A DNA stretch of 64,000 bases, taken from NCBI GenBank assembly GCA_035629175.1, contig DASPIL010000033.1, positions 1-64,000 on the forward strand, given 5' to 3'. Origin of the DNA: Verrucomicrobiia bacterium. Lineage in GTDB: Bacteria; Verrucomicrobiota; Verrucomicrobiia; Limisphaerales; DASXHY01. Below, piece by piece: positions 20,431-47,337 of this stretch. A program made the position numbers and the translations under genes. The number at the start of each line of letters is the position of its first letter. Position 1 is the first letter of the stretch. The notes beneath the pieces are model-generated. The model did not search any database, was not told the DNA's origin, and saw only the letters and a program-made list of their open reading frames with translations.

Positions 20431-23418
20431 TCAGCGTCGGGCGGGGCCGATCACCCGCTCCTGGGCGGGAGTGAGCGTCACTGGCCCGCGTAATCCCGAG
20501 AGCAGGGGTTCCCAATCCGAGGCGTCGAACACCCCATTCCTGCGATTCGCCGCAAGCCGGGCGGGGAAGTTTACGTTGTAAAATTTCTTCCATAGAACTT
20601 TGTTTCGATCCATGTCCGCAATGCGATTGGCCATGATATTCGATACACGGATCCCTAGAAGGTTGTGTGAATGCACCTTCGAACGCGGAACAAAAATGCG
20701 GAAGGGCGCTCCGATGAGGGTTGCCAGGCGCTCACCGTTCCAAAACACCTGCGCGCTGTCGGCGACTTCGCCAAGGTCGAGCCATAATCCCGCGGCGGCG
20801 TCATCAAGGGATGTGCTAAATCGAGTGAAGTACTCGGCGGTTCCAGAAAACTTTCTCCCTGCATCTCCGCCGAACTCAGTCCAGGACTGCAACTTTGACA
20901 GGTCGATCGTGCCCGGCAATTCCGGCCCGCCGCGCAGGAAGGTCACACGCCAGGGGCCGCTCAACTCCTGCGACTCGCCGGCTTCGATGTGAAAGCTGAT
21001 CGCAGCATCGGCGGTGGAGCTTGACAGCGTTTGGAGAATCGCGCTTTCGCCCGGCGCGAGCTCCAGGTAAACGGCAGAATTGGATTCGCCCGTGGAACTC
21101 TTCGACGGCAGCAAGCCAATGTTGCCAGTCATGGCATCGAACAACGCTACACTGCCCGCAGTTCTCCCCAGCTGAATCCAGTCAGCGACGGCACGTTCGC
21201 CGCGGTTGGCGACAAAATAAAATGTTCCCAGGGCATTGATTCCCCTAAAAAATTGCAGGCCCGCATCCACCATGGTTTCCCGCGCGACGCCCGAGGCTTC
21301 GAGGCCAGCGCGCGCGGATGATGTTGCGAAGAGCGTGCCGTGTCCCATTTCAGCGGCCTGCACGCCACCGCTGCTCGTTTCAGTGAACGCGGCGTTCGCT
21401 GCGAGTGCTTTGAATTTTGCGCGCCGCGAATCCAGCTGGTGCAGCCCGGGAACGTCAGCTGGCAATCCATTCACAAACACGATCCGGGCGCCCTCTTTCG
21501 CGAGGACGATCAATCGTTGCATCGTGTCGAGCGGCATCCAGTGGCACTCGGGCACAAGGATTGCCTGATAGGCGCCTCCGCCGGCGCGAAGTTTTCCGCG
21601 CGAGAACTTTACGTGTTGCAGTTGGCGATCTGAAACCAAGTCAAAGGCAAACCCGCCCGCCTGCAGTTCTTCCGCCGTCTTCTGAATGTGACTGCCGCGC
21701 GGCATGCCGTCGAAGTGTCTCAGCAAATCGGGACCCCGTTCCGCGTATGCATCAGCTATCGGGAAATACAGCAGCACATCGTTGTCGTGCTTGCCGCTTT
21801 GGAGCACCGATTGGACGCGCGTGACGTATTGATTCAAGGTGCCAAAATCCTCCCACCATGAATTGCGCGCATTGAAATGAACGGCAGCGTAGAACAGCCA
21901 TCCCGGCCAGGGTTCGTCTTGGGGCGAGTACGCCGTGCCGTGATAACACACGTGATTAACGCCTCCAATGAAGTAGAGATCAAGCGCGCGCTTCACATCC
22001 GAAAGTGTGGAGAGGAAATGCTCATTCAACCACGTTGCCGCTTCTGCCGACGCCAGGCGTTTTCCGGTTACATGCGCTGCGGAGCTGGCGAACTTGAGGC
22101 GAAGGATGTCAGTTCCCTCGGTTTCAGGGATGTCGCTTGCAGCATACAGGTCCAGGATATTTGCGGGCGAACCATGCGCCTGATTGCGAACCAGGGCGTC
22201 CTTGCGATGCGCCCATTGCCGCCACGGCTGCGTGAAGTTCTCCAACAGAAGGTCGGAAATCGTTTCGCGATAATCGTGCAGTATCCGCGCATTCACTTCG
22301 GACGATGCGTTTCCGAACAATGCGGGCAGATGTTCGCGCAAGTCGTAACCGCGGCGGCGGCGGAATTCTGCAAACAGGCGGGGCGTCCAGTCGGCCTGTC
22401 CGTTGGCGTCGTCCACTTCATACGAATCATTGAAGAACGCTCGAAGCGGCCGGATATCGCGGCGGGCGAGGGCGTGACCGAATCGATCCAGATAATGGTT
22501 GAGGGCAGCGGATGAAAAATGGTCGATGACGTTGCCTTCGCCGCCCGGCCCGGCCCGTTCAACCATCTTGCCGTGCCAGCCCTGGAAAACTGCGTAGAGA
22601 GTCCATTCGCCTTGAGGGGCGCTCCAGTCGAGCCGGCCGTCCGCGTCGACGCGCCGGGTGAGATCGAGGACAGCCCCCGACTTGGAGTAGGCGATCAGCG
22701 CCTGAAGGGGCAATGGCTTGGGAAATTTGACCTGATCGAGGGCGAGTGTCTGCAGGTTTGGGGTGTCCGCAATTGGATCACGCAGTCGTTCCAAAGCGAT
22801 TCGCGGGGAACTGTCGAGGAGCTGCGGATTTTGCGCAGTGCCGATGACGCGCTCGCCGGGCGGGCGCAGGATTTCGCCATAGAGTTGATAAACCTGGTTG
22901 CCCACTGCGCGAATCAGCGGCGCGGCAGACAAGGTGACGGGTTCGTTCAGCCGTTCACCGTGCTTGAGTTGAAAGGTTCGGAACTCAACGTCCTTGCAGG
23001 CATGGGGTGCGCCGATCCATGGCCCGCCGAACGGCCAGCCGGTGCCAGTCGCCATGTCGACGCCCAGGTTGAGCCTTTCGGCTTCAGCCAGAGTGTGCGC
23101 GAACAGGTCCGTCCAGCGGGAAGAAAGATAAGGGACGAATTGTTGCTCCCGTCCTGCAACGCCGTAAATGGGCGTGATTTCGACGCCACCGATGCCGATA
23201 GCCTTTAACCCCTCGAGATCGGCTGAGAGGCTGTTGGATTCCACGCTGCTGCCCATCCACCACCAGCGGGTCCACGGGCGCATTTCACGCGTCACATCAG
23301 GCCACGAAAGCGCTGCATTTCCATCCGCAGGAGCTGACAACAGAACGAATGAATGCGTTAGGACAGAAACTAAGATCAGCGGTCGAAGAGTAGCGCGGAG
23401 GAAATCGCCGTGGGTCAT
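20431..23418 (-). CDS. GH106-like glycoside hydrolase (alpha-L-rhamnosidase family), secreted
   Basis: The 995-residue product starts with a signal peptide (LRPLILVSVLTHSFVLLSAPA). The mature N-terminus WPDVTREMRPWTRWWWMG with LKAIGIGGVEITPIYGV is the hallmark of GH106, as is VDMATGTGWPFGGPW near residue 120. The C-terminus (about 850-990) is a galactose-binding beta-sandwich with AQVFWNGERLATLIGAPFRI. GH106 enzymes remove alpha-L-rhamnose from pectic side chains, including rhamnogalacturonan II, and from other glycans. It stands alone on the minus strand but faces the pectinase fusion on the plus strand. Confidence 0.88.
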   Translation of the reverse strand: MTHGDFLRATLRPLILVSVLTHSFVLLSAPADGNAALSWPDVTREMRPWTRWWWMGSSVESNSLSADLEGLKAIGIGGVEITPIYGVAGREQQFVPYLSSRWTDLFAHTLAEAERLNLGVDMATGTGWPFGGPWIGAPHACKDVEFRTFQLKHGERLNEPVTLSAAPLIRAVGNQVYQLYGEILRPPGERVIGTAQNPQLLDSSPRIALERLRDPIADTPNLQTLALDQVKFPKPLPLQALIAYSKSGAVLDLTRRVDADGRLDWSAPQGEWTLYAVFQGWHGKMVERAGPGGEGNVIDHFSSAALNHYLDRFGHALARRDIRPLRAFFNDSYEVDDANGQADWTPRLFAEFRRRRGYDLREHLPALFGNASSEVNARILHDYRETISDLLLENFTQPWRQWAHRKDALVRNQAHGSPANILDLYAASDIPETEGTDILRLKFASSAAHVTGKRLASAEAATWLNEHFLSTLSDVKRALDLYFIGGVNHVCYHGTAYSPQDEPWPGWLFYAAVHFNARNSWWEDFGTLNQYVTRVQSVLQSGKHDNDVLLYFPIADAYAERGPDLLRHFDGMPRGSHIQKTAEELQAGGFAFDLVSDRQLQHVKFSRGKLRAGGGAYQAILVPECHWMPLDTMQRLIVLAKEGARIVFVNGLPADVPGLHQLDSRRAKFKALAANAAFTETSSGGVQAAEMGHGTLFATSSARAGLEASGVARETMVDAGLQFFRGINALGTFYFVANRGERAVADWIQLGRTAGSVALFDAMTGNIGLLPSKSSTGESNSAVYLELAPGESAILQTLSSSTADAAISFHIEAGESQELSGPWRVTFLRGGPELPGTIDLSKLQSWTEFGGDAGRKFSGTAEYFTRFSTSLDDAAAGLWLDLGEVADSAQVFWNGERLATLIGAPFRIFVPRSKVHSHNLLGIRVSNIMANRIADMDRNKVLWKKFYNVNFPARLAANRRNGVFDASDWEPLLSGLRGPVTLTPAQERVIGPARR

Positions 23419-23872: not shown

Positions 23873-24049
23873 TTGGCGGGTTGCCCGCGAGGGGAGTTGA
23901 ACGTTCAGCCTTGCGCGTGCACATAACCCACGTCGAATTGCCGAATTCTCAATGTTCAAACCCCTGCAACGCCGGTAACCTTTCGCGAAATTCCCGGTTC
24001 TAAACGCCGTATGCACTTCGCCCAACGCGCGCTGGATCCAAATTACCTT

Positions 24050-26650
24050 ATGAAGCTGATGCGAGTCCTGAAATGCTGTTGTCTGCTCCCCGCCGCTCTT
24101 GCACTGTCCCTGGCCAATGCAGCCGATTTTCCCAGCCAATTCAAAGGCGCAACGCCGCTGGAGTGGTCGATTCGCATGGCGCAGTCGGAAATGGAACGGC
24201 GCGGCGACAATCTTGCGTGGAAGGAAGGCGGCCGCGCCAAATGGGATTACACGGCGGGGCTTTTCACGGAGTCGCTGCTGACGCTGCACACGCTGCATCC
24301 CGATCCCCGCTACGTGGAGTTCAGCAAGCGCACGATCGGTTCGTTTGTGAAACCTGACGGCGGCATTCAGGGTTACAAGCTCGAGGATTATAACATCGAC
24401 AACATCAATCCCGGAAAAACCGTCATCACGCTCTGGGAACGCACGCAGGAAGAGCGCTACAGAAAGTGCGCTGAGTTGCTGCGCAACCAATTAAAGACGC
24501 ATCCGCGGACGAGCGATGGCGGGTTCTGGCACAAGCAACGGTATCCAAACCAGATGTGGCTCGATGGCCTCTTCATGGGGGCGCCGTTTTACGCTGAATA
24601 CGCGAAGCTCTTCAATGAACCCGCGGCGTTCGACGATGTGGCGAAGCAGTTCAGGTTGATCGTGAAGCACACCTACGATTCGAAGAGCGGCCTCTTCTAT
24701 CACGGTTGGGATGAAAGCAGGGAGCAGGATTGGGCCAGCAAGACGACGGGAACTTCGTCCAATTTCTGGGGTCGCGGGCTGGGTTGGTTTTCAATGGCGC
24801 TCGTGGACGTTCTTGATTTTCTGCCGCAGGAACATCCCGGGCGCGCAGATATTCTGAAATCGCTGAAGCTCGTTGCCGACGGCATCGTCCGGCATCAGGA
24901 CCCCGCGAGCGGTCTGTGGTGGCAGGTGATGGACCAGGGCGGCAGGGAGGGAAATTATCTCGAGGCAACGGCCGCGACGATGTTCACCTACACTTTGGCG
25001 AAGGCGATCAACGAAGGCTATCTGCCGCGCGACCCGTACCTGCAGCCGCTGCTGAAAGGTTACAGCGGGCTGATAGAACGGCTGCTCAAAGTGGAGGCGA
25101 ATGGAAAAGTATCGCTCACCCAATGCTGCTCGGTGGCGGGACTCGGTTACGGACGCGATGGATCGTACGCGTATTATCTTCGCGAGCCGATCGTGAATAA
25201 TGATCTCAAGGGCGTCGGGCCATTGATCCTTGGAGGAATCCAGATGCAGCGGCTGCTTGGGTTGCCCATGCGCGCAGAGTGGAAAGGCCTGGGCTCAGGC
25301 GGCGCGGCAGCAAGTATTCTCACAAATGAATGGAAGCTGGCCGACGAGATTCTTGCGCGCATTCAGGCGCCTGTTTTTCCGAATCGTGAATTCTCCATCG
25401 TCGGTTTTGGCGCGAAGTCCGATGGGCAATCGGATTCCTCTGATGCGATCCGCAACGCCATTGACGCATGCGTGAAGGCGGGCGGCGGGCGCGTCGTGGT
25501 TCCTGCCGGGATGTACCTGACGGGGCCAATTGAATTGAAGAGCCGCGTGAATCTGCATCTCGATGGCGGCGCGACGCTGTTGTTCAAGAAAGACCCCGCC
25601 GCATTCCTCCCAGCAGTGTTGTCACGTTACGAAGGAATGGATTGCTGGAATTACTCGCCGCTCATCTATGCCATCGACCAGGAAAACATTGCCGTCACCG
25701 GCGATGGCGTGTTGGACGGGCAGGCGGATCACGAAACGTGGTGGCCGTGGAAAGGGCAGGCGAAGCATGGATGGAAAACGGGCGGACCGCAGCAGAAAGC
25801 CGCCCGGGATCGGCTGATCAAAATGGTCGAGAACAACGTGCCCGTCGACGAACGCCGTTTCGGCGAGGGCGATTACCTGAGGCCCAGTTTTATTCATCCA
25901 TATCGCTGCCGCAACGTGCTGATCGAAGGCGTGCGCATTCGCCGATCCCCCATGTGGGAAATTCATCCAGCGCTCTGCACCAACGTGATCGTGCGGGGTG
26001 TCGACATCGTGACGCACGGGCCGAACAACGACGGCTGCAATCCTGAAGCTTCGCGCGATGTGCTGATCGAAGATTGCCTGTTCGACACGGGCGATGATTG
26101 CATCGCGATCAAGTCGGGACGCAACAACGATGGACGGCGTGTTGGTTTGGCCTCGGAGAACATCATCATTCGCAACTGCACGATGAAGGATGGACACGGT
26201 GGCGTGGTGATTGGCAGCGAGATTTCGGGCGGCTGCCGAAATGTCTTTGTCGAGAACTGCGAAATGGACAGCCCGAACCTGGATCGTGTGCTGCGGTTCA
26301 AATCCAACGCCGTGCGCGGTGGGCTCGTGGAGAACATCTTCATGCGCAATATCCGCGTTGGCCGCGTGGCTGATGCGATCCTGCAGATTGACTTCGTGTA
26401 CGAGGAAGGCGCGAAAGGCAGCCATCGGCCGGTTGTTCGGAATGTCGTGATGGAAAACATTACGAGCCGGGAAACGCCGCGCGTGTTGAACGTGGTGGGG
26501 ATTCCGAATGGCGAGATCAGCAACGTGCGTGTCGTGAATTCAGCCTTCGGCAACGTGCAGCGACCCGACGTGATCAGGGAGGCGACGGATGTGAAACTGG
26601 TCGACTGCGTGGTTGAGAACGCGGGTGCTGCGGCAGCGAAGGCGGATTAA
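24050..26650 (+). CDS. Secreted GH105-GH28 fusion (unsaturated galacturonyl hydrolase plus polygalacturonase)
   Basis: From ATG 24050 the product is 866 residues with a signal peptide (LKCCCLLPAALALSLANA). Residues about 30-425 are a GH105 (alpha/alpha)6 barrel; the catalytic-Asp stretch is PNQMWLDGLFMGAPFYAEYA. From about 440 a GH28 right-handed beta helix follows, opening FSIVGFGAKSDGQSDSSDAI, with all polygalacturonase signatures: NNDGCNP, DTGDDCIAIKSG, GHGGVVIGSE and a RFK variant of the RIK motif. The pair would release galacturonate or unsaturated galacturonate from pectin fragments in one chain. ATG 24011 is an alternative start that puts 13 extra residues before the signal peptide. 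Confidence 0.9.
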   Translation: MKLMRVLKCCCLLPAALALSLANAADFPSQFKGATPLEWSIRMAQSEMERRGDNLAWKEGGRAKWDYTAGLFTESLLTLHTLHPDPRYVEFSKRTIGSFVKPDGGIQGYKLEDYNIDNINPGKTVITLWERTQEERYRKCAELLRNQLKTHPRTSDGGFWHKQRYPNQMWLDGLFMGAPFYAEYAKLFNEPAAFDDVAKQFRLIVKHTYDSKSGLFYHGWDESREQDWASKTTGTSSNFWGRGLGWFSMALVDVLDFLPQEHPGRADILKSLKLVADGIVRHQDPASGLWWQVMDQGGREGNYLEATAATMFTYTLAKAINEGYLPRDPYLQPLLKGYSGLIERLLKVEANGKVSLTQCCSVAGLGYGRDGSYAYYLREPIVNNDLKGVGPLILGGIQMQRLLGLPMRAEWKGLGSGGAAASILTNEWKLADEILARIQAPVFPNREFSIVGFGAKSDGQSDSSDAIRNAIDACVKAGGGRVVVPAGMYLTGPIELKSRVNLHLDGGATLLFKKDPAAFLPAVLSRYEGMDCWNYSPLIYAIDQENIAVTGDGVLDGQADHETWWPWKGQAKHGWKTGGPQQKAARDRLIKMVENNVPVDERRFGEGDYLRPSFIHPYRCRNVLIEGVRIRRSPMWEIHPALCTNVIVRGVDIVTHGPNNDGCNPEASRDVLIEDCLFDTGDDCIAIKSGRNNDGRRVGLASENIIIRNCTMKDGHGGVVIGSEISGGCRNVFVENCEMDSPNLDRVLRFKSNAVRGGLVENIFMRNIRVGRVADAILQIDFVYEEGAKGSHRPVVRNVVMENITSRETPRVLNVVGIPNGEISNVRVVNSAFGNVQRPDVIREATDVKLVDCVVENAGAAAAKAD

Positions 26651-37098: not shown

Positions 37099-37220
37099 TC
37101 AGTCAGGCGGGATGCAGCAACGGGCGAGGCAATTTCATCAACGCATTTGGCGATTTTCCATTCACGCAAAGTGTTGGTTCCTTGAAGCCGTTCGTTATGC
37201 TGGCGGCGGCTCAAAAACTC

Positions 37221-38477
37221 ATGGAACGCATCCGCGCCATCTATCGGATCGAAACGCCGCTGCCGCTCGAGAAAGCCGCCGCAATCCTCGCTGGCGAGCA
37301 ATCCTCCGGCACGTTCGTGGAAGTGCCAGGCGAAACCGCCGAACTGAAACACCGTTTCGCGGCGCGCGTGGAAAGCATCACACCCCGGGAGGTGCTGCCG
37401 CACCCGAGCCTTCCTGGTTGCGGGGAGGGAAACCAATCCTACCAACGCGCGGACATCGTGGTGTCGTGGTCGATTGAAAACATGGGATTCAATCTGCCGA
37501 CGCTCGTTTCCACGGTTCAGGGGAACCTCTACGAGCTCTCCCAATTTTCCGGACTCAAGCTGCTTGATCTCGAGCTGCCGCCTTCCTTTGTGTCCCAATT
37601 TCGCGGACCGAAGTTTGGAATTGCAGGGTGCCGCGAGCTGACGGGCGTTCACGGACGGCCGCTCATCGGCACGATCATCAAGCCGAGCATCGGCCTCGCG
37701 CCAGGACAAACGGCGGAACTCGTCCGCGTGCTGAGCGAAGCTGGAATTGATTTCATCAAGGACGACGAACTCATGGCTGATCCGCCGCATTCACCCTTCG
37801 ACGATCGTGTCGATGCCATCATGCGCGTGATCCATGCGCATGCCGATCGGACGGGCAAAAAGGTCATGTACGCGTTCAACATCAGCGACGAATTGGATCC
37901 GATGTTGCGCCATTACGAGAAGGTGGTTCGCAGTGGCGGCACCTGCGTGATGATGTCGATCAACAGCGTCGGGTTGTCTGCGGTGAAGAAGATTTGTGAC
38001 GTTGGACAGCTGTCAGTTCACGGGCATCGCAATGGCTGGGGTGCCCTGAATCGGCATCCACTTTTGGGAATTGAATTCGGCGCATACCAGAAATTGTGGC
38101 GCATGGCAGGAGTGGATCAGCTTCACGTCAACGGCATCGCAAACAAGTTTTGGGAAAGCGACGATTCGGTCGTGCGCTCGATCGAGGCTTGCCAGGCGCG
38201 GCTGCAAAACACGTCTGCAATCCTGCCAGTGGTGTCGTCGGGCCAATGGGGCGGGCAAGCGCCCGAGACGTATCGTCGAACACAAACGGTGGACCTGTTG
38301 TACATGGCGGGCGGCGGAATCATGGCGCACCCCTCGGGGCCGGCAGCAGGCGTGCGGTCGTTGCGGAAATGGTGGGAGGCTGCGGTTGAGGGGCTGTCCA
38401 TGGAACAGGCGGTCGAGGCGTATCCCGAGCTAAGGTTGTCCCGGGAAAAATTCGGCGGAAGCAAGCGATCGAGCTGA
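37221..38477 (+). CDS. RuBisCO-like protein (form IV RLP), candidate 3-oxo-isoapionate-4-phosphate decarboxylase or transcarboxylase
   Basis: A 418-residue member of the RuBisCO large-subunit superfamily. By eye alignment the residues of true RuBisCO are all kept: K154 in TIIKPSIG (K175), K180-D-D182-E183 in FIKDDEL (carbamate Lys and metal ligands K201, D203, E204), H269-R270 in SVHGHR (H294/R295), H302 and K309 in LHVNGIANKFWE (H327, K334), and GGGIMAHPSG for phosphate. It overlaps an operon with a DUF1537 kinase, racemase-fold protein and BASS symporter. RLPs paired with DUF1537 kinases are known in D-apiose catabolism (OiaX decarboxylase, OiaT transcarboxylase/hydrolase); I cannot decide which. 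It is not evidence for CO2 fixation. ATG 37197 is an alternative start; translation from TTG 37182 is unlikely. Confidence 0.85.
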   Translation: MERIRAIYRIETPLPLEKAAAILAGEQSSGTFVEVPGETAELKHRFAARVESITPREVLPHPSLPGCGEGNQSYQRADIVVSWSIENMGFNLPTLVSTVQGNLYELSQFSGLKLLDLELPPSFVSQFRGPKFGIAGCRELTGVHGRPLIGTIIKPSIGLAPGQTAELVRVLSEAGIDFIKDDELMADPPHSPFDDRVDAIMRVIHAHADRTGKKVMYAFNISDELDPMLRHYEKVVRSGGTCVMMSINSVGLSAVKKICDVGQLSVHGHRNGWGALNRHPLLGIEFGAYQKLWRMAGVDQLHVNGIANKFWESDDSVVRSIEACQARLQNTSAILPVVSSGQWGGQAPETYRRTQTVDLLYMAGGGIMAHPSGPAAGVRSLRKWWEAAVEGLSMEQAVEAYPELRLSREKFGGSKRSS

Positions 38478-38487
38478 CGCCACGCGC

Positions 38488-39813
38488 ATGAGCCTGCTCC
38501 TGACATTTTATGGCGATGACTTCACGGGGTCGACTGACGCGCTGGAGCAGTTGAACATGGCAGGCATCCAGTCCGCATTGTTTACTTCGCCGCCAACGGC
38601 CGAACAGATGCGGCGATTCGATGGGCTGCAGGCGATTGGCGTCGCGGGGCGCACACGCGCGTTGCGGCCGAAAGCGATGACTCGAGAACTGCGGCCAGCC
38701 TTTCAGCGTTTGAAGGACCTGCGGCCGCGTCATGTTCATTACAAGGTTTGCTCGACGTTCGATTCATCCCCTGATGCCGGCAATCTCGGCACTGTGATTG
38801 CATTGGGATTCGAGGTGTTTCAAACGCGATTCATTCCCATCCTCGCGGCTGCTCCCGCGCTCGGCCGATTCACCGTGTTCGGAAATCATTTCGCGCAATT
38901 TGGCATCGGCAGCGGCGGGGAGATTCATCGGCTGGATCGGCATCCGTCCGTCAGCAGGCATCCGATCACCCCGATGCGTGAGGCGGATCTGCGTTTGCAC
39001 CTGGCAAGACAGACGAAGGAAGCCGTTGGCCTGTTTGACGTCCTCAAGCTTTCACTGCCAATGCAAAAGCGAACAACCGCTCTTGAAGGCCTGCTGGCTG
39101 CTGGGGCGCGCGTGGTGTTGTTCGACGCATTGACCATGGACCACGTGGAGCGCGTGGGTGAACTGATGGATGCGTTTGCGAGTGAACAGGCCCCGATGTT
39201 TTCAATGGGTTCGTCCGCAATTGAAACGGCACTTGCCAGCATGACGAGCAAACGGCCGCGAGCGGTGAAGCCTCGCCGCACTGGAATATCTGCGGGCGAA
39301 CCAGTGCTGGTGGCCTCGGGCAGTTGCTCGCCTGTGACGCTGCGCCAGATAAGGTCTGCGGTCCGCAGCGGGTTTGTTGAAGTACCGCTGGACGTGCGGG
39401 CGCTGGGAGCGGCAAGGAGCCGCGCAAACGAAATTGTCCGCGCGTCGAACGCCGCGTTGGCCGCGCTCGAAAAAGAACGCAGTGTTGTGATCCATACGAC
39501 CCGTCACGGCCGCGCCGAACGACTGTCGAGCCATTTCCCGAAAGGCACGGCTGAGGTTCTTGGGAATGCGCTCGGTTCCGTGCTCCGGAATGTCCTGGCG
39601 AAAAATCGGGTTCACAGGGTGTGCCTTGCTGGAGGGGACACGTCGAGTTACGCAGCCCGTGCGCTAGGTTTGGAGGCGCTTGAGATGATCGCGCCGTTGA
39701 CACCCGGGGCGCCGCTGTGTCGTGCGCGCGCTCCAGGTTCGCCGCTCGATGGGCGTGAGGTGGTTTTCAAAGGCGGGCAGGTGGGAGTGGAAAATTATTT
39801 CGAACAGCTATGA
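38488..39813 (+). CDS. DUF1537 four-carbon acid-sugar kinase family, candidate 3-oxo-isoapionate kinase
   Basis: The 441-residue product begins LLLTFYGDDFTGSTDALEQL, the substrate-binding DDFTG motif of the DUF1537 (OtnK/DtnK/OiaK) kinases. The C-terminal nucleotide-binding domain has VLVASGSCSPVT, RVCLAGGDTSSYAARALG and the terminal VVFKGGQVGVENYF. Characterised members phosphorylate tetronates, threonate, erythronate and 3-oxo-isoapionate. Placement 10 nt after the RuBisCO-like gene suggests it makes the phosphorylated substrate of that protein. A long middle insertion (HLARQTKEAVGLFDVLKL and nearby) is usual for the family. Its stop overlaps the next start as ATGA. Confidence 0.85.
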   Translation: MSLLLTFYGDDFTGSTDALEQLNMAGIQSALFTSPPTAEQMRRFDGLQAIGVAGRTRALRPKAMTRELRPAFQRLKDLRPRHVHYKVCSTFDSSPDAGNLGTVIALGFEVFQTRFIPILAAAPALGRFTVFGNHFAQFGIGSGGEIHRLDRHPSVSRHPITPMREADLRLHLARQTKEAVGLFDVLKLSLPMQKRTTALEGLLAAGARVVLFDALTMDHVERVGELMDAFASEQAPMFSMGSSAIETALASMTSKRPRAVKPRRTGISAGEPVLVASGSCSPVTLRQIRSAVRSGFVEVPLDVRALGAARSRANEIVRASNAALAALEKERSVVIHTTRHGRAERLSSHFPKGTAEVLGNALGSVLRNVLAKNRVHRVCLAGGDTSSYAARALGLEALEMIAPLTPGAPLCRARAPGSPLDGREVVFKGGQVGVENYFEQL

Positions 39814-40487
39814 AAAAGACGCTTGGATTGGTTCACACATCAGCGACGCTTGTTCCTGTATTTGCGGCGCTGTGCAAGGAGAAGCTGCCGAATGTCGAGA
39901 CCTTCAACATCGCCGATGACAGTCTGATCAAGGATGTGATTCGCCGAAACGAGCTCACGTCCCAGACAGCACGGCGGGTCGTTCAGCATGTGGCGTCGGC
40001 TGCCGAGGCTGGCGCCGATTTGATCCTTGTCACGTGCTCCTCGATTGGCCGCGCAGTGGAGACAGCTGCCGGGCTGGTGAACGTGCCCGTGCTGCGGGTG
40101 GACCAGCCGATGGCCGACGAAGCGGTTCGGCTGGGCACTCGCATTGGCGTCGTGGCGACTTTGCCCACGACACTGGAACCCACGGCCGATCTCATTGCGC
40201 GGCGCGCTGCGATCATTGGCAAGAGAGTTGAGGTCACATCCCGGCTTTGCGAAGGCGCCTTTAATGCCTTGATGAGTGGAGACGCTGCGACGCACGACGC
40301 GATGATTTCGGCAGCGCTGCAGGACATGGCACAGAAGGTGGAAGTCATCGTGCTTGCGCAGGCATCGATGGCCCGGGTGGTCGAGGGGCTGCCTTCGGAA
40401 GCGCGGCGTGTTCCTATCCTTGCGAGTCCGCGTCTGGCGATTGACTACGTGGCTCAACGCATGCAAGGCGCGGCGGGGTCGATATGA
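39810..40487 (+). CDS. Asp/Glu/hydantoin racemase-fold protein, role unknown
   Basis: A 225-residue protein starting MKKTLGLVHTSATLVPVFAAL. The first catalytic-type cysteine is present in LILVTCSSIG (C76). At the place where two-base racemases have a second Cys, the sequence reads VLAQASMARV, with Ala or Ser instead. A single Cys is reminiscent of arylmalonate decarboxylase-type members rather than true racemases. It is linked by ATGA overlaps both to the DUF1537 kinase and to the symporter, so it probably acts in the same pathway. I know of no racemase-fold step in published apiose routes, so this may be a new activity. Confidence 0.75.
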   Translation: MKKTLGLVHTSATLVPVFAALCKEKLPNVETFNIADDSLIKDVIRRNELTSQTARRVVQHVASAAEAGADLILVTCSSIGRAVETAAGLVNVPVLRVDQPMADEAVRLGTRIGVVATLPTTLEPTADLIARRAAIIGKRVEVTSRLCEGAFNALMSGDAATHDAMISAALQDMAQKVEVIVLAQASMARVVEGLPSEARRVPILASPRLAIDYVAQRMQGAAGSI

Positions 40488-41710
40488 ACCCCGCCTGGCA
40501 AATGCTGGCGGCGGCTGCCGCTGTGGCGGCTGCGATTTCCCTGCGATTTGTTCCAAAATTGCGCAGCTACCAATTCACTGCATGGATCATTGCCGCGGTC
40601 GTGTGCGCAATGATTTATCCGCAGCGCTTCCTCCGGATTGGTGATGTGGATCTCCGCAACAAGTGGCTGATCCTGTTCATTGTGCAGGCGGTCATGTTTG
40701 GAATGGGCACGCAGATGAAGCTGGCGGATTTCAAAGGGTTGGTGCGGATGCCGTGGGCGGTGTTCATCGGCGTTGCCGGGCAATTCACGATCATGCCGCT
40801 CCTGGGTTTTGCGCTGACCAAGCTTTTCCAATTCGAACCTGAGATAGCGGCGGGTGTGATTTTGATCGGCTCGTGCTCCGCAGGCCTTGCTTCGAACGTG
40901 ATGGCCTACATCGCGAAGGCGAACCTGGCATTGTCGATTACGATGACTTCGATAACGACGATGCTGGCGCCGGTCATGACGCCGTTTTGGATGCGGCTGC
41001 TCGTTGACGAACGCGTTGAGAGTTTGAGTTACGTGAGCATGATGATGGAGATCATCAAAATAGTCATTGTTCCGATCGCCGCGGCGCTCCTGCACGATTA
41101 TCTCGGGTTCGCCTCGGAGCGGGGGAGAAGGATTGTGCTTTCGCTCGCGCTGGTTGCGGTGGGGTGGCTGGCATTTCTGGCGCTGGGCGGATGGCCATGG
41201 CTTCAGCTGGCGTTGTCTGCGGACGCGCTGCCGTGGGTGGGAGCGGTTGGATTTGTGCTGGCGGCGATTCCCGTCGGGGTCATCTACCATCAACTCACGC
41301 GATTTTTGCCTGTCTTGCCACGAGTGATGCCGGTGCTCTCGATGGCGGGCATCGTCTATTTCACCACCGTGACGACTGCGGCTGGCCGGAACAATCTGCT
41401 CGAGGTTGGCGGGGCCCTCTTTTGCGCGGCCGCGTTGCACAACGTGTTCGGCTACGTGTTCGGTTACGGATTGGCGCGTTTATGCAGGCTCGACATGGCA
41501 TCGTGCCGCACGGTTGCATTTGAGGTCGGCCTGCAGAATGGCGGAATGGCGTCGGGCATCGCAGGCGCGATGGGCAAGCTCGGGACTGTGGGCCTGGCGG
41601 CGGCCATTTTCAGCCCGTGGATGAATGTCAGCGGATCCATTCTCGCCAATTACTGGCGAAAGAGGGCTGGAAAGACGGCAGAATGCGGGAGTCAGGTTGT
41701 GATCACCTGA
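40484..41710 (+). CDS. Bile acid:Na+ symporter (BASS) family transporter
   Basis: A 408-residue membrane protein with about ten hydrophobic helices. Family signatures are SCSAGLASNVMAYIAKANLALSITMTS (crossing helix 4 region with the substrate and Na+ site) and VAFEVGLQNGGMASGIA (helix 9 with the conserved E-V-G-x-Q-N). BASS members move bile acids, pantoate or ketopantoate, pyruvate and other organic anions. A branched hydroxy acid such as apionate or isoapionate would be a reasonable substrate given the neighbouring RuBisCO-like and kinase genes and the resemblance of apionate to pantoate; this is inference. It ends the plus-strand operon, with ATGA overlap at its start. Confidence 0.85.
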   Translation: MNPAWQMLAAAAAVAAAISLRFVPKLRSYQFTAWIIAAVVCAMIYPQRFLRIGDVDLRNKWLILFIVQAVMFGMGTQMKLADFKGLVRMPWAVFIGVAGQFTIMPLLGFALTKLFQFEPEIAAGVILIGSCSAGLASNVMAYIAKANLALSITMTSITTMLAPVMTPFWMRLLVDERVESLSYVSMMMEIIKIVIVPIAAALLHDYLGFASERGRRIVLSLALVAVGWLAFLALGGWPWLQLALSADALPWVGAVGFVLAAIPVGVIYHQLTRFLPVLPRVMPVLSMAGIVYFTTVTTAAGRNNLLEVGGALFCAAALHNVFGYVFGYGLARLCRLDMASCRTVAFEVGLQNGGMASGIAGAMGKLGTVGLAAAIFSPWMNVSGSILANYWRKRAGKTAECGSQVVIT

Positions 41711-41972: not shown

Positions 41973-43433
41973 TCAGATTACCCGGCGCACAGCCTGCTGC
42001 CATGCGTGATGCAGGGCAGTTGCCTGGGCGGAATCCAGCTTTGGAGCGTAGGAGATGTGTGTGTTTCCGATGCGCTCCAGATCCTGCAGCGATCCGCAGA
42101 TCTTCTGGTTCAGCAATCCATTCAGCGCAGCGCCCCAGGCGCACAGTTCGGTGGTCTGCGCAACGGCGAGTTCGGCACGAGTGATGTCCGCACTGAATTG
42201 CATGAGAAACTGGTTGCGGGTTGGACCTCCATCAGCAGCAATCCGGGTGACGCGATGCCCTTCCGCGCTCATCATGTCCAGGACGTCGCGAAGCTGGTAC
42301 GCGATGGACTCGAGGGCGGCGCGGACGATGTGTTCGCGCCGGGTGTGGGCGCTCATGCCGAGAATTGCGGCGCGCGCATCAGGAGACCAGTAGGGCGCGC
42401 TCAGGCCTGCGAAGGCGGGGACGAGATGCACACCGCCGTTGTCGGGCACAGAGCACGCCAGAGCTTCGACTTCCGAGGCGTCGCGGATCAGTCCCATTTG
42501 ATTCTTCAACCATTCGATGGTGGCCGCGGAGAAGTTGATGAGACCTTCAAGCGCGAAAGTGGCCTGGCCATTGAGCACCCATGCCAGGGCCAGCACGCTT
42601 CCCTTTTCAGGCAGGCGGAATGCGCTGCCCACATTCAGCATGACCGACGTTCCTGTTCCGAACGTGGCTTTTGCGGTTCCCGGCGTGAAGCAGCGCTGGG
42701 CGAAGAGAGCTGCCTGTGAATCGCCCATCACCCCTGCAATTGGAATTGGGTTTGGAAGCAGGCCCTCGAGATCAGTATCGCCGAACTGAGCCGCGCTTTC
42801 CCGCACTTCAGGCAGAGCGCGAGAAGAAACTTCGAAGAGGTTGCACAGCTCTGGATCCCATCGAAGTTCGGCGATGTTGAACAGAAGCGTGCGGCTGGCG
42901 TTGGTGAAATCGGTGGCAAAAGTTTTTCCATGCGTGAGGCGATGGATAAGATAGGTGTCGATGGTTCCAATGACCGCTTCACCGGTTTTAAGCTTTTGCG
43001 CGAGGCCGGGTTTTTCCTGGATGAGCCACTTGAGTTTTGAAGCCGAGAAATATGTATTAATCTTGAGCCCGGTCTTTTCCCGCACGGTGCTTTCATGGCC
43101 GGAACGAATGAGATCGGCGCAAATCCCATCGCCGCGGCGGTCGAGCCACACCAGCGCATTGTGCAAGGGTTTGCTGGTTTTACGGTCGAAGATGAGGATC
43201 GTTTCGCGCTGGTTCGTCAGGCTGAGGAAGCTGATGGGATGGCGATGTTGTTCCACCACCTCCCTGAGGACGGCGAGCGTGTTCTGCCAGATTTCTTCAG
43301 GGTCGTGTTCGACCCAGCCGGGTTGCGGGTAGAGTTGGCGGTGCTCGCGGCTGGCCCGGGCGAGGACTTCGCCTTGCGGCGAAAAGACGAGCGCTTTGGT
43401 TGCAGAGGTGCTTTGGTCAAGGGCTAGGAGCAT
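41973..43433 (-). CDS. FGGY-family carbohydrate kinase (glycerol kinase-like), candidate apulose kinase
   Basis: A 486-residue sugar kinase. The ATP-binding start is MLLALDQSTSATKALVF; other marks are WVEHDPEEIW, LTNQRET, VWLDRRGDGICADL, GTIDTYLIHRLT, TDFTNASRTLLFNI, MGDSQAALFAQ, GTGTSVMLN and ADGGPTRNQFLMQF. Sequence is closest to glycerol kinases, but no glycerol transporter or GlpD is nearby. Co-location with a split transketolase and a FucI/AraA-like isomerase matches the three-step D-apiose route (isomerase, apulose kinase, apulose-4-phosphate transketolase). ATG 43433 lies at the very edge of a 9-bp tandem repeat array; the frame upstream only translates the repeat (SPISPISP) and is rejected. 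Confidence 0.85.
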   Translation of the reverse strand: MLLALDQSTSATKALVFSPQGEVLARASREHRQLYPQPGWVEHDPEEIWQNTLAVLREVVEQHRHPISFLSLTNQRETILIFDRKTSKPLHNALVWLDRRGDGICADLIRSGHESTVREKTGLKINTYFSASKLKWLIQEKPGLAQKLKTGEAVIGTIDTYLIHRLTHGKTFATDFTNASRTLLFNIAELRWDPELCNLFEVSSRALPEVRESAAQFGDTDLEGLLPNPIPIAGVMGDSQAALFAQRCFTPGTAKATFGTGTSVMLNVGSAFRLPEKGSVLALAWVLNGQATFALEGLINFSAATIEWLKNQMGLIRDASEVEALACSVPDNGGVHLVPAFAGLSAPYWSPDARAAILGMSAHTRREHIVRAALESIAYQLRDVLDMMSAEGHRVTRIAADGGPTRNQFLMQFSADITRAELAVAQTTELCAWGAALNGLLNQKICGSLQDLERIGNTHISYAPKLDSAQATALHHAWQQAVRRVI

Positions 43434-43485
43434 GGGACTAATGAGACTAATGGGACTAATGGGACTAATGGGACTAATGGGACTT
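43432..43485. repeat. Six 9-bp tandem repeats (ATGGGACTA), left flank of cassette
   Basis: Six units, five reading ATGGGACTA or ATGGGACTT and one ATGAGACTA. On the minus strand the array contains both the stop codon of the four-helix-bundle gene (CATTAG) and the start codon of the FGGY kinase (CCCATG). Degenerate copies of the same unit lie on the other side of the four-helix-bundle gene. Confidence 0.95.
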
Positions 43486-44025
43486 ATGGCGGCGGCGGGC
43501 TTCGAACATGCGTTCGCGGAGGCCGCCGTGCCGGGTGAAATCCTGCTCGAGACGAAGGATCTGGCGATCAAGGAGGTAGTTCGCCTGGTGAATGAGACAA
43601 ATGGCGATGTTGGCTACGATCTCCGCAGGACGGCTTTCCGCAAACGGACGAAAGATCTCGTACGTAGAGTCGGGCCGGCTGCCAAGTTTGCGCACGTAGA
43701 GAGCCTCTGTTGAGTTCTTGTCCCAGATGTTCAGTTCGCGCGCGCGTAGGAAATCGCCGTAATCGAGCAGAAGTTCTTCCAGGCTGGCACGAGCCACGTT
43801 CGTCAGCTTGATTTCGGTTTCCTTCGAGGTGCCTGAGGCTTTTGAGGCTTCGGAAATGTTCTGCTTTCCGGATCGCGCTGCCTGAACCATCTGGTCGATC
43901 GTCCGGTCTCGTCTTTCGAAAAAGCGCTTGCAAAAGGTGAAAGTCAGGTCGTAGATCATCTCTGATTTCCGGTAGGACAGAAGCTCGCGGTAGTTCCCGT
44001 GCGGCGGTATGAATCCCTCTTGCAT
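43474..44025 (-). CDS. Four-helix-bundle suffix domain protein (23S rRNA-IVS/Avd-like)
   Basis: A 183-residue helical protein. HGNYRELLSYRKSEMIYDLT, RRDRTIDQMVQAARSGKQNI and EASKASGTSKETEIKLTNVARASLEELLLDY are the four-helix-bundle signature found in proteins from 23S rRNA intervening sequences and in diversity-generating-retroelement accessory proteins (Avd). The last 60 residues (AEIVANIAICLIHQANYLLDRQI, FTRHGGLRERM) are the longer suffix form. Its biochemical role is not known; Avd-type relatives bind RNA. No reverse transcriptase or rRNA is nearby. The gene is bracketed by 9-bp repeats and sits between two sugar-pathway genes to which it has no obvious link, so it looks like an inserted cassette. 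Confidence 0.88.
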   Translation of the reverse strand: MQEGFIPPHGNYRELLSYRKSEMIYDLTFTFCKRFFERRDRTIDQMVQAARSGKQNISEASKASGTSKETEIKLTNVARASLEELLLDYGDFLRARELNIWDKNSTEALYVRKLGSRPDSTYEIFRPFAESRPAEIVANIAICLIHQANYLLDRQILRLEQDFTRHGGLRERMFEARRRHKSH

Positions 44026-44045
44026 ATGTTTTCCCTTTTTTCCCC

Positions 44046-44090
44046 ATCAGTCCCATGGATCCTATAAGACCCATGGGACTCATGGGACCC
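44046..44090. repeat. Degenerate 9-bp repeats, right flank of cassette
   Basis: About five diverged 9-bp units (ATCAGTCCCAT, GGATCCTAT, AAGACCCAT, GGGACTCAT, GGGACCC) built on the same GTCCCAT word as the left array. The stop codon of the transketolase C-subunit (44080-44082) lies inside this array, so the last residues VP plus stop are encoded by repeat sequence. Confidence 0.85.
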
Positions 44091-45081
44091 GTGCCTTTAT
44101 AACCACTGCCGACAAACTTTCCATCGAAATTCCGTAATGGCGGAAAATGTCCGCTTGCGAACCTGTGACGGTTTCTTCATCTGGAATGCCTACCATGCGG
44201 AACGCCACGTGCACGCCCGCCTGCATGAGGAGGCCGGCGCACGCTTCGCCCAAACCGCCGTGAACGCTGTGCTCTTCCACCGTGATTACTGACCGGCATT
44301 CGCGGGCCGCGCGCAGGATGGTCTCTGCGTCGAGCGGTTTCACTGTGTGCACACTTAAAACCCTGGCGCGAATGCCGCGCTCTTCCAACGCCGCCGCTGC
44401 CAGCACGCAATGCACAACGGTCTCTCCCGTCCCAATAAATGCAACATCGTTGCCGTCGCCCAGCTGGATCGCCTTGCCGGCTTGAAACTGTGTGCCTGGC
44501 GCGTGCAGCGTGTACATGGGCGCCTTGCCGAAGCGCACAAAGACCGGCTTTGATGCGCGTGCGGCGGTTAGGATGGCCTCCCGAGTTTCAAAGTTGTCCG
44601 CGGGAACGATGATGCTGATGTTATTGATCGCGCGCAGAACAGCGAGGTCGTGCAACGAATGATGTGTGCTGCCGAGCGCGCCATAACTGACGCCGGCACT
44701 GATCCCGACCAACACAGCAGGGACGTCAGAATAGCAGATGTCGTTCTTGATTTGCTCGAGCGAGCGGGCGGTGAGAAAGCAGGAAGGTGAAACCCCGAAC
44801 GATTTCTTCCCGCACGCAGCCAGCCCGGCCGTGATGCCAACCAGATTCTGTTCAGCAATGCCGACTTCGATCAGTTGTTCCGGAAACGCCTTGCCAAAAG
44901 GTGCGAGCTTGCCGGAGCCGCGTGAGTCGCTCGTTACCGCGACAATATTGCGATCGGCGCGCGCGAGTTCCTCCATGGTTGCCGCGAACTCGTCCAGGTT
45001 CGCGCGTCCCATGCTCAGGCCAAGCTTCTCGGCCATGGCTGTTGCAGCCGTCGAAAATATTGAAGGGGCAGGGGCGCTCAT
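44080..45081 (-). CDS. Transketolase C-terminal subunit (split transketolase)
   Basis: The 333-residue product is the pyrimidine-binding plus C-terminal half of transketolase, encoded separately from the TPP-phosphate half. The catalytic Glu lies in EVGIAEQNLVGITAGLA, followed by SYGALGSTHHSLHDLAVLRA, VPADNFETREAI, and the C-terminal domain VLSVHTVKPLDAETILRAA with VTVEEHSVHGGLGEA. Split enzymes include AptAB (apulose-4-phosphate transketolase) and SqwGH (sulfofructose transketolase). It overlaps the N-subunit by ATGA, so the two are translated together. Its stop is inside the 9-bp repeat array. Confidence 0.92.
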   Translation of the reverse strand: MSAPAPSIFSTAATAMAEKLGLSMGRANLDEFAATMEELARADRNIVAVTSDSRGSGKLAPFGKAFPEQLIEVGIAEQNLVGITAGLAACGKKSFGVSPSCFLTARSLEQIKNDICYSDVPAVLVGISAGVSYGALGSTHHSLHDLAVLRAINNISIIVPADNFETREAILTAARASKPVFVRFGKAPMYTLHAPGTQFQAGKAIQLGDGNDVAFIGTGETVVHCVLAAAALEERGIRARVLSVHTVKPLDAETILRAARECRSVITVEEHSVHGGLGEACAGLLMQAGVHVAFRMVGIPDEETVTGSQADIFRHYGISMESLSAVVIKARVP

Positions 45082-45923
45082 GAATTTTTTTGCAGCCGCT
45101 GTTCCGCCGCAGTGAGTTCATCTAGGGCCTGCTCCAGTTCGGTGGCGGTGGGCACGCCGTGATGCCACTTCGGCACGTTCTCCATGAAGCTGACGCCCTT
45201 GCCTTTCACTGTGCTGGCAAGGATGAACGTGGGCTGCCCGGGCGCAGGCGCGGCGCTGAGCGCCTCAACCAGGTCCGCGAAATTGTGTCCGTCGACGGTC
45301 CGCACCGCCCACCCAAAAGCACGCCATTTGTCCTCGAGCGGCTCGTTGCAACACACATCACGCGTGTGGCCAGTGATCTGCAGCGTGTTGTGGTCAAGGA
45401 TCGCGACGAGGTTATCGAGCTTGTGATGCGAGGCCGCCATGGCAGCCTCCCAGTTCGAACCCTCGGCCAACTCTCCGTCACCGAGCAACGTGAACACGCG
45501 GTAATTGGCGCGATCCATTTTCCCGGCGAGCGCCATCCCGAGGCAGATCGGAAGACCGTGGCCCAGTGCGCCCGTGTTCATTTCGATTCCGGGAATGTGG
45601 CGCGTCGGGTGGCCCACGAAATGGGACTGATAGCGGCAGATCTTGTCGAGTTCGGTTTCAGGGAAGAAGCCGCGATCCGCGAGAACGGTGTAAAGCGCTT
45701 CAACGCAGTGTCCCTTGCTTTGGACGTAACGATCGCGGTGCGGGTGCAGCGCATTCTGCGGCGAGATGTTTAGCACCTGGTTGTATAGGGCCACCAGGAT
45801 ATCGATGCAGGAGAGGCCGCCACCCGTGTGTCCGGCGCCTGCATGACGAATCGCCTGCAGCATGCGTTTGCGCAGGCGCAACGATTTGAGCTGGAGGTCC
45901 AGGAAGGGGCGTTGTTCAGCCAT
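45078..45923 (-). CDS. Transketolase N-terminal subunit (split transketolase)
   Basis: The 281-residue product carries the TPP-binding GDGELAEGSNWEAAMAASHHKLDNLVAILDHN motif read in sections, the conserved histidine-rich AIRHAGAGHTGGGLSCIDIL start and SKGHCVEALYTVLADRGF. It is the PP half of a two-subunit transketolase. I chose ATG 45923 (MAEQRPFLDLQLK); an in-frame ATG at 45956 would overlap more of the isomerase gene. It overlaps the isomerase gene by 8 nt and the C-subunit by 4 nt, so all three are one operon. In the apiose scheme the enzyme would convert apulose-4-phosphate plus glyceraldehyde-3-phosphate to xylulose-5-phosphate and dihydroxyacetone phosphate. Confidence 0.92.
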   Translation of the reverse strand: MAEQRPFLDLQLKSLRLRKRMLQAIRHAGAGHTGGGLSCIDILVALYNQVLNISPQNALHPHRDRYVQSKGHCVEALYTVLADRGFFPETELDKICRYQSHFVGHPTRHIPGIEMNTGALGHGLPICLGMALAGKMDRANYRVFTLLGDGELAEGSNWEAAMAASHHKLDNLVAILDHNTLQITGHTRDVCCNEPLEDKWRAFGWAVRTVDGHNFADLVEALSAAPAPGQPTFILASTVKGKGVSFMENVPKWHHGVPTATELEQALDELTAAEQRLQKNS

Positions 45924-47337
45924 GCCGGTGCACTTCCCATCCGAAATAGTTTCCAAAGGCCTCCTCGAGAATGGCCGCGCTTTGGGAAACGGTCATCACG
46001 ACATGGTGTTCAAAGCCGTTGCGGCAAACGTAGTTCATCAGCTTCTGCAGGTTCGGCACACGCGCCACAGCTCGATTGCCGAAGGTGTCGAGCGGATCAT
46101 TTGTAAGCTCGCCCTCGCCCACATACGCGCGGATGCAACCGTCCGTATCCGCGGTCGTGATGCGTCCGAAGGTCAGGGGACCCCCGGGTGTGCGCCCTTC
46201 GAGTGCGCCATATGTGTTCTCCACGCCAAGCGTGCTGCCGAGAATCGGGGCGTTGGAAATCTTGATGTCGGGCAGAAAGCTCTTCGCCCAGTTGCCGCAA
46301 TGGAAGAGCACGCACTTTTCGTCGTCATCGGCGTAGTTATTGTTCCAATCGACGAGCGCCGCAGGCGTGTTGCCTGCCAGTTGCATGGCACACATCGTAA
46401 GCACGCCGGTGACATCGACCTCGCACGCACTTGGCATGAAACGATCGCTCATCATGCTCATCAGCGTGCAAACGTTGCAGCCGTAATTCTGTTGAACCGA
46501 GGTCCAGCATTGAATCGCCGTTGCGTCGAGCGCGTTGGCGGTCATCCAGTCGGCGAGCACGACACCCATTTTCGCCATCTGCACGAGCTTGTCATGGGGA
46601 ACGCCCGGGGCAGGCGCGTAGCTTTTGATTTCGTCGAGCTTTGCTGCGACGGACGGAACCGACAGATCAAGCTTGTTGGCATTGCCGATGATTTCGGAAA
46701 GATCAACCGTGGTGACGCTGATGCCGTGCCGCTCCAGGATTTTTTCCGAGTAACGAACGGTGTTGAACGCGCCTGGCCGCGCGCCGACGGCGCCGAGCCG
46801 GACACCGCGCATGCCGTTCACGACGCGGCAGACGCCCATGAACTGCTGCAGGTCCTGCATGAAGCTTGCGGACGTGGGATGCGATACGTGTTTGCTCGTG
46901 AGCGTGAACTTGATCCCGGCCTGGACCAGGTTGTTGCACACGGATATTTTGCCGCAGTAAGCATCGCGCCGTCGCGCAGGGGAGAGTTGCTTGAGGTCGT
47001 CGGGATAACCCTGGATCAAAACCGGCACGTTCAGCTTTGCCATCTTGAGCGTGTCAGCAACTCCCTTTTCATCGCCGAAATTCGGAAGGCAGACAAGGAT
47101 CCCATCCATCTCGTGACTGTGCCTTCGGAAGAGTTCAGCGCACTTTCGGGCATCGGCGTGGGTCTCCACACCACCGAGCTTGGAGTCATTTTCGTCCAGC
47201 TGAATGGCGCGAATGCCGAGTTTCGCAAACACACCTGCCATGTCCGCCCGCGCCTCCGTAATGAGGTGATCCGGGAAAAAGTCGCGATTTCCGTAAAGCA
47301 CGCCGAGCGCGAACGGCTTGGAATTGAGGGCTTTCAT
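45916..47337 (-). CDS. L-fucose/L-arabinose isomerase-family protein
   Basis: A 473-residue protein of the FucI/AraA-like fold. Stretches seen are GILVCLPNFGDEKGVADTL, LGAVGARPGAFNTVRYSEKIL, IQCWTSVQQNYGCNVCTLMS, SACEVDVTGVLTMCAMQLAGN (a likely metal-ligand Glu and Asp), VDWNNNYADDDEKCVLFHCGNW (with a likely ligand His) and GRTPGGPLTFGRITT. Family members interconvert aldoses and ketoses with Mn2+. As the first gene of the isomerase-transketolase-kinase operon it is the natural candidate for aldose-to-ketose isomerisation of the operon's sugar. Whether characterised apiose isomerases belong to this family needs checking. It is divergent from the BNR operon across a 141-nt gap that should hold both promoters. 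Confidence 0.85.
   Translation of the reverse strand: MKALNSKPFALGVLYGNRDFFPDHLITEARADMAGVFAKLGIRAIQLDENDSKLGGVETHADARKCAELFRRHSHEMDGILVCLPNFGDEKGVADTLKMAKLNVPVLIQGYPDDLKQLSPARRRDAYCGKISVCNNLVQAGIKFTLTSKHVSHPTSASFMQDLQQFMGVCRVVNGMRGVRLGAVGARPGAFNTVRYSEKILERHGISVTTVDLSEIIGNANKLDLSVPSVAAKLDEIKSYAPAPGVPHDKLVQMAKMGVVLADWMTANALDATAIQCWTSVQQNYGCNVCTLMSMMSDRFMPSACEVDVTGVLTMCAMQLAGNTPAALVDWNNNYADDDEKCVLFHCGNWAKSFLPDIKISNAPILGSTLGVENTYGALEGRTPGGPLTFGRITTADTDGCIRAYVGEGELTNDPLDTFGNRAVARVPNLQKLMNYVCRNGFEHHVVMTVSQSAAILEEAFGNYFGWEVHRHG

Follow-up and report, generated by a model that had tools for sequence, protein, structure and literature searches.

What does a racemase-fold protein do in the middle of an operon built around a RuBisCO-like protein (RLP)? 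The question is raised by a stretch of 64,000 nucleotides from a Verrucomicrobiia bacterium (GenBank assembly GCA_035629175.1, contig DASPIL010000033.1), referred to here as the window, in which four genes follow one another on the forward strand. The activities and substrates given for their products are predictions.

37182..38477, + strand: RLP; PF00016, 211 bits; predicted substrate, the phosphorylated aceric-acid ketose
38488..39813, + strand: DUF1537 four-carbon-acid-sugar kinase family; PF07005/PF17042; predicted 1-kinase of the ketose
39810..40487, + strand: racemase-fold protein (RAC), 225 aa; PF01177, AlphaFold2 model; predicted one-base aldose-ketose isomerase
40484..41710, + strand: BASS-family transporter; PF01758; predicted aceric acid importer

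The four-gene cassette and its conservation

The RLP gene ends ten bases ahead of the DUF1537 kinase gene. RAC is joined to both of its neighbors by ATGA overlaps, with the kinase at its 5' end (39806-39816, AGCTATGAAAA) and with the BASS transporter at its 3' end (40480-40490, CGATATGAACC), which confirms both junctions described in the first-pass annotation of this DNA. Translation of the RLP probably begins later than the listed TTG codon (37182); its homologues begin near residue 14, which corresponds to an ATG at 37221.

The cassette RLP retains the KDDE motif. Among the NCBIfam models for RLPs of this kind, it matches OiaX (NF042437) alone, over the full length and with 500 bits, under the curated cut-off of 700. 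The kinase scores 372 bits against OiaK (NF042436), again under a curated cut-off of 700, and the transporter scores 193 bits against PanS, below the cut-off. RAC has no match among the NCBIfam models. In a profile search it matches PF01177 (Asp_Glu_race) with 87 bits against a cut-off of 31. An AlphaFold2 model of RAC, built from 12 sequences (mean pLDDT 93.5, pTM 0.88), matches aspartate and glutamate racemases over the full length, with a Z-score of 21.6 and 2.5 Å over 209 residues for the aspartate racemase 1jfl. By profile and by its two-domain racemase fold, RAC belongs to the Asp/Glu racemase superfamily. Members of the racemase-fold family at loci L041 and L043 and in other plasmid records are labelled "arylsulfatase," apparently wrongly.

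An initial search returned 11 RAC loci, in which Verrucomicrobiota, Planctomycetota, and Bacteroidota are represented and identity ranges from 60 to 71%; the order RLP-DUF1537-RAC-BASS is found on one strand in 10 of them. Further loci were added from plasmid and whole-genome searches; in the final clustering RAC is present in 30 loci and the RLP, the kinase, and the BASS transporter in 29 each. That RAC is retained at 60-77% identity in three phyla excludes chance as the origin of this pattern. With the full cassette in 29 of 30 loci at an identity of at least 60%, the earlier proposal that RAC works in one pathway with the RLP and the DUF1537 kinase is borne out. The constant linkage to an RLP, which the first-pass annotation had named as a point to check, stands for these loci except L003, where RAC and BASS occur without RLP and kinase within the 8 kb available and whose genome contains the D-apionate oxidoisomerase ApnO, and it fails below 50% identity, where RAC homologues are not linked to an RLP and several adjoin other DUF1537 kinases. 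RLP-DUF1537-RAC-BASS is probably a self-contained catabolic cassette, and we predict that it serves aceric acid.

Some loci carry additional genes. Directly upstream of the RLP in four Verrucomicrobiota loci (L052, L053, L055, and L056) lies an acid-sugar dehydratase of the MR/MLE family, nearest to L-talarate/galactarate dehydratase and below the cut-off, and a fucP/MaoC/CoA-transferase block is situated near the cassette in Mucilaginibacter. Both were set aside as accessory neighbors.

Association with GH127 and the likely substrate

Aceric acid, 3-C-carboxy-5-deoxy-L-xylose, is a rare branched sugar of the plant cell wall; it is the rhamnogalacturonan II (RG-II) sugar whose carboxyl group is borne by a tertiary carbinol carbon at the branch. 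At L008, the RLP is immediately preceded by a gene for a GH127 protein whose best match in the Protein Data Bank is 5mqo, scoring 821 bits where the runner-up scores 372. We take 5mqo to be BT1003 of Bacteroides thetaiotaomicron. BT1003 is an aceric-acid hydrolase (PMC10850190, PMC5698469). The GH127 of the window's own genome (C29:47247-49166), situated on another contig than the cassette, is likewise of the BT1003 type (638 bits for 5mqo against 376 for the next match), and a GH127 of this type, with 45-58% identity, is present in all 23 carrier genomes examined.

Among 288 Verrucomicrobiota, RAC (>260 bits) occurs in 10 genomes, a strong GH127 (>600 bits) in 11, and both in 10 (Fisher exact, 1e-17), and among 296 Bacteroidota RAC occurs in 7, a strong GH127 (>870 bits) in 16, and both in 7 (Fisher exact, 3e-10), with cut-offs that were set after a gap in the scores had been seen and a test that ignores kinship; the two phyla are independent. 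Of the genomes with both, 9 of the 10 Verrucomicrobiota and 4 of the 7 Bacteroidota have RAC and GH127 on the same contig, no more than 25 kb apart, and in L008, L049, L051, L100, and L103 at most about 40 bases separate the end of GH127 from the RLP. When 100 neighboring ORFs were scanned, the commonest families were α-L-rhamnosidase (10), GH127 (9), GH2 (6), and GH106 rhamnosidase (4), the picture expected of RG-II side-chain degradation. Aceric acid is carried by rhamnose in RG-II.

A strong GH127 without RAC is found in 9 of the 16 Bacteroidota, and in G200 a GH127 is situated beside an apiose-type operon, again without RAC. The hydrolase is therefore more widespread than the cassette; GH127 could be a marker of RG-II use in general, and the cassette may serve another RG-II acid in RG-II degraders. 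Nevertheless, on the strength of its genomic company in three phyla we assign the cassette to aceric acid, and we consider this substrate likely. BT1003 frees aceric acid from RG-II, and the cassette would explain the fate of the free sugar. In the literature searched, which did not extend to key subscription papers, we found no published catabolic route for aceric acid; its release from RG-II is known, and the present proposal names genes and products for its later breakdown. The cassette could also mark aceric-acid users among soil, sediment, and plant-associated bacteria.

Predicted route and the active site of RAC

Aceric acid, CHO-CHOH-C(OH)(COOH)-CHOH-CH3, has no primary hydroxyl group that a kinase could use until it is isomerized. 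The BASS transporter, the kinase, and the RLP have obvious roles, which leaves the aldose-ketose isomerization for RAC. In the proposed route, aceric acid would be imported by BASS and converted from aldose to ketose by RAC, with Cys-76 alone shifting the C2 proton to C1 via a cis-enediol. The product would be CH2OH-CO-C(OH)(COOH)-CHOH-CH3, which is one carbon longer than its homologue 3-oxo-isoapionate and has CHOH-CH3 where the D-apionate intermediate has CH2OH. 3-Oxo-isoapionate is the known substrate of OiaK, and its phosphorylated form is a substrate of the RLPs (RLP reactions cited in PMC6302742). The DUF1537 kinase would phosphorylate C1 of the ketose. The RLP would then either move the carboxyl group and hydrolyze the product, as OiaT does, to give 3-phosphoglycerate and L-lactate, or decarboxylate only, as OiaX does, to give a 5-deoxypentulose-1-phosphate. 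An OiaT-like RLP needs no further gene, whereas an OiaX-like RLP needs an aldolase. If the route is correct, it adds a new substrate for RuBisCO-like proteins.

The second outcome, in which a rhamnulose-1-phosphate-type aldolase would release dihydroxyacetone phosphate and acetaldehyde, is a tentative variant that is compatible with the route as a whole. The full-length match to OiaX speaks for it, and Fischer bookkeeping leads to 5-deoxy-L-xylulose-1-phosphate, stereochemically a RhaD-type substrate. However, no aldolase recurs at the cassette loci, and the cassette RLPs are nearer to the RLPs of operons without LerI/DerI, which are probably OiaT-like. The RhaD family gives only a weak partial match in the window's genome, on which ground the RhaD aldolase was rejected as an obligate downstream step.

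The assignment of RAC as the aldose-ketose isomerase of aceric acid, with C76 as its one base, is our preferred reading, although we hold it with evenly balanced confidence, the activity and the substrate both being predicted. The codons of Cys-76 and Gln-184 are located as follows.

40035..40037, + strand: Cys-76 codon (TGC); proposed single catalytic base, invariant in 44/44 homologues
40359..40361, + strand: Gln-184 codon; position held by the second catalytic Cys in two-base racemases

Residues were counted over 44 RAC homologues (24 close, 10 middle, and 10 distant). Cys-76 aligns with the first catalytic cysteine of racemases, and Ser-77 shares its invariance across the whole set; His-9 and Ser-186 are each found in 43 of 44, and within the close clade His-9, Cys-76, and Ser-77 are all invariant. 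The AQASM segment aligns with the second-cysteine motif GCT, which puts Gln-184 at the cysteine position in comparison with 2eq5 and with E. coli MurI, aligned over its full length (YgeA was left out because the global profile alignment placed one half on the other). Position 184 is Gln in 40 homologues and His in three. Cys-147, which the first-pass annotation had named as an example of a residue that could overturn its one-cysteine reading, is Cys in only 26 homologues and Val in 13, and it was rejected as a hidden or moved second catalytic cysteine since the position varies. A catalytic cysteine is thus present in one half-site only, and the earlier view of RAC as a single-cysteine protein, distinct from classical two-base racemases, holds. 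With the two-cysteine Asp/Glu/hydantoin racemases (PF01177) it has in common the fold and the first catalytic Cys; it differs from them in Gln-184, in a His-9 that is invariant in the close clade, and in its sugar-acid context.

These features would suit an isomerase. The C3 of the ketose is quaternary, so no racemizable α carbon remains for RAC to act on, and a 1,2-proton transfer calls for a base on a single face, which would let a racemase ancestor lose its second cysteine. We know of no aldose-ketose isomerase in the racemase superfamily; if the reading is correct, RAC is a case of a two-base racemase turned one-base isomerase.

It is doubtful, although it deserves consideration, that the cassette serves aceric acid while RAC is an epimerase or racemase, for example with His-9 as the second base, or an accessory protein, the isomerase being encoded elsewhere. 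The near-universal conservation of His-9 would agree with such a role, and in two Hymenobacter loci a TIM-barrel isomerase-like gene lies beside the RLP and could provide the isomerization instead of RAC. This extra gene is limited to 2 of the 11 initial loci, however, and with C3 quaternary after isomerization there is no obvious stereocenter to epimerize.

Distant homologues provide a further comparison for RAC as an isomerase. In the 3-oxo-tetronate pathway (OtnI isomerase, OtnK kinase, and OtnC decarboxylase; E. coli ygbJKLM), a keto isomerization feeds a DUF1537 kinase, as proposed for the cassette, but OtnI comes from another protein family and there is no RLP. OtnI is a 2-oxo/3-oxo isomerase. 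In L020, L023, L024, L041, and L042, a distant RAC is situated beside the DUF1537 kinase of this pathway (OtnK) and the OtnC aldolase, and OtnI was not found near any of these five. The distant RACs of L020, L024, L041, and L042, with 29-46% identity, may replace the 2-oxo-tetronate isomerase. The absence of OtnI beside RAC is only suggestive, because the OtnK/OtnC pair of L067 has neither OtnI nor RAC. Across these settings, RAC would seem to supply keto-acid substrates to DUF1537 kinases.

Apionate, decarboxylation, and the surroundings of the cassette

The first-pass annotation had placed RAC in an apiose setting, and we know of no racemase-fold step of this kind in the apiose routes. A related reading makes the cassette an additional D-apionate pathway, with RAC contributing to the formation or correction of 3-oxo-isoapionate. 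As described by Carter et al. 2018 (cited in PMC6302742), the D-apionate pathways comprise the RLPs OiaX/OiaT, the kinase OiaK, and the oxidoisomerase ApnO, with the RLP adjoining a DUF1537 kinase as in the cassette. Of the NCBIfam models, OiaX and OiaK come closest to the cassette RLP and kinase, respectively, yet both curated cut-offs are missed by a wide margin. In the phylogenetic tree, the cassette RLPs group in a clade of their own with support of 98/93, to which neither the ApnO group nor OiaX belongs; OiaX is on a long branch and unsure in its placing. RLP-DUF1537 pairs without RAC are found in Halalkalicoccus, Rhizobium C104 (annotated OiaX), Cupriavidus, and Shinella, and near each there is a "phosphogluconate dehydrogenase C-terminal domain" protein, which from its context we take to be ApnO. 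A search with this protein gave no match in the window's genome or in 22 of the 23 RAC carriers, and it matched in three positive controls.

The presence of an apiose-type operon next to the cassette in the window could be counted in favor of an apionate role.

41973..47337, - strand: separate apiose-type operon; FGGY kinase, split transketolase, FucI-like isomerase

Judged by sequence, this is probably an apiose operon in its own right: its proteins show 36, 40, and 48% identity to the FGGY kinase, AptB, and AptA, respectively, encoded in the apiose cluster of E. coli SE15 (PMC13001218). With AptA/AptB-like genes adjoining, apiose seems to have its own route. Because ApnO is missing in 22 of 23 carriers and the apiose operon adjoins, apionate is probably not the substrate of the cassette, and the apiose setting proposed earlier is not supported. 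Compared with the D-apionate pathways, the cassette lacks ApnO, has RAC and BASS in addition, and is tightly linked to the BT1003-type GH127, a link that apionate leaves unexplained. Taken together, we consider the D-apionate reading unlikely. In L106, the same apiose-type operon adjoins a BT1003-type GH127, and RAC was not found there. Within the operon of the window, a small, probably helical protein (43474-44025, - strand) is inserted between the kinase and the transketolase, and simple repeats (MGLMGLMGLM / SPISPISPIS in translation) occur beside it within 43396-44025.

It is very improbable that RAC is a malonate-type decarboxylase, as its likeness to these enzymes had suggested: arylmalonate decarboxylase is a single-cysteine member of the same superfamily and matches the RAC model with a Z-score of 15.5, but it keeps the opposite cysteine, with Gly-74 at the first site and Cys-188 at the second (PMC4996985) against Cys-76 and Gln-184, its motifs LMGTSLSF and ILLSCGGL are replaced by LVTCSSIG and VLAQASMA in RAC, and the RLP is the likelier decarboxylase of the cassette.

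A GH106 α-L-rhamnosidase and a GH88/GH105-GH28 fusion are encoded nearby (20431-23418, - strand, and 24011-26650, + strand), which supports the presence of a pectin-degradation island. Between 49317 and 55200 on the forward strand are genes for an SSF symporter, an Fe-dependent alcohol dehydrogenase, a DHDPS-family aldolase, PdxA, and a second DUF1537 protein, a set whose chemistry agrees with breakdown of the RG-II acid Dha. In the first step, aldol cleavage would give pyruvate and a four-carbon semialdehyde, the semialdehyde would be reduced to D-threonate (by Fischer bookkeeping) and phosphorylated at position 4, and PdxA2 would finally yield dihydroxyacetone phosphate and CO2. If this reading is correct, the window holds modules for three rare RG-II sugars, together with the apiose and RLP operons.
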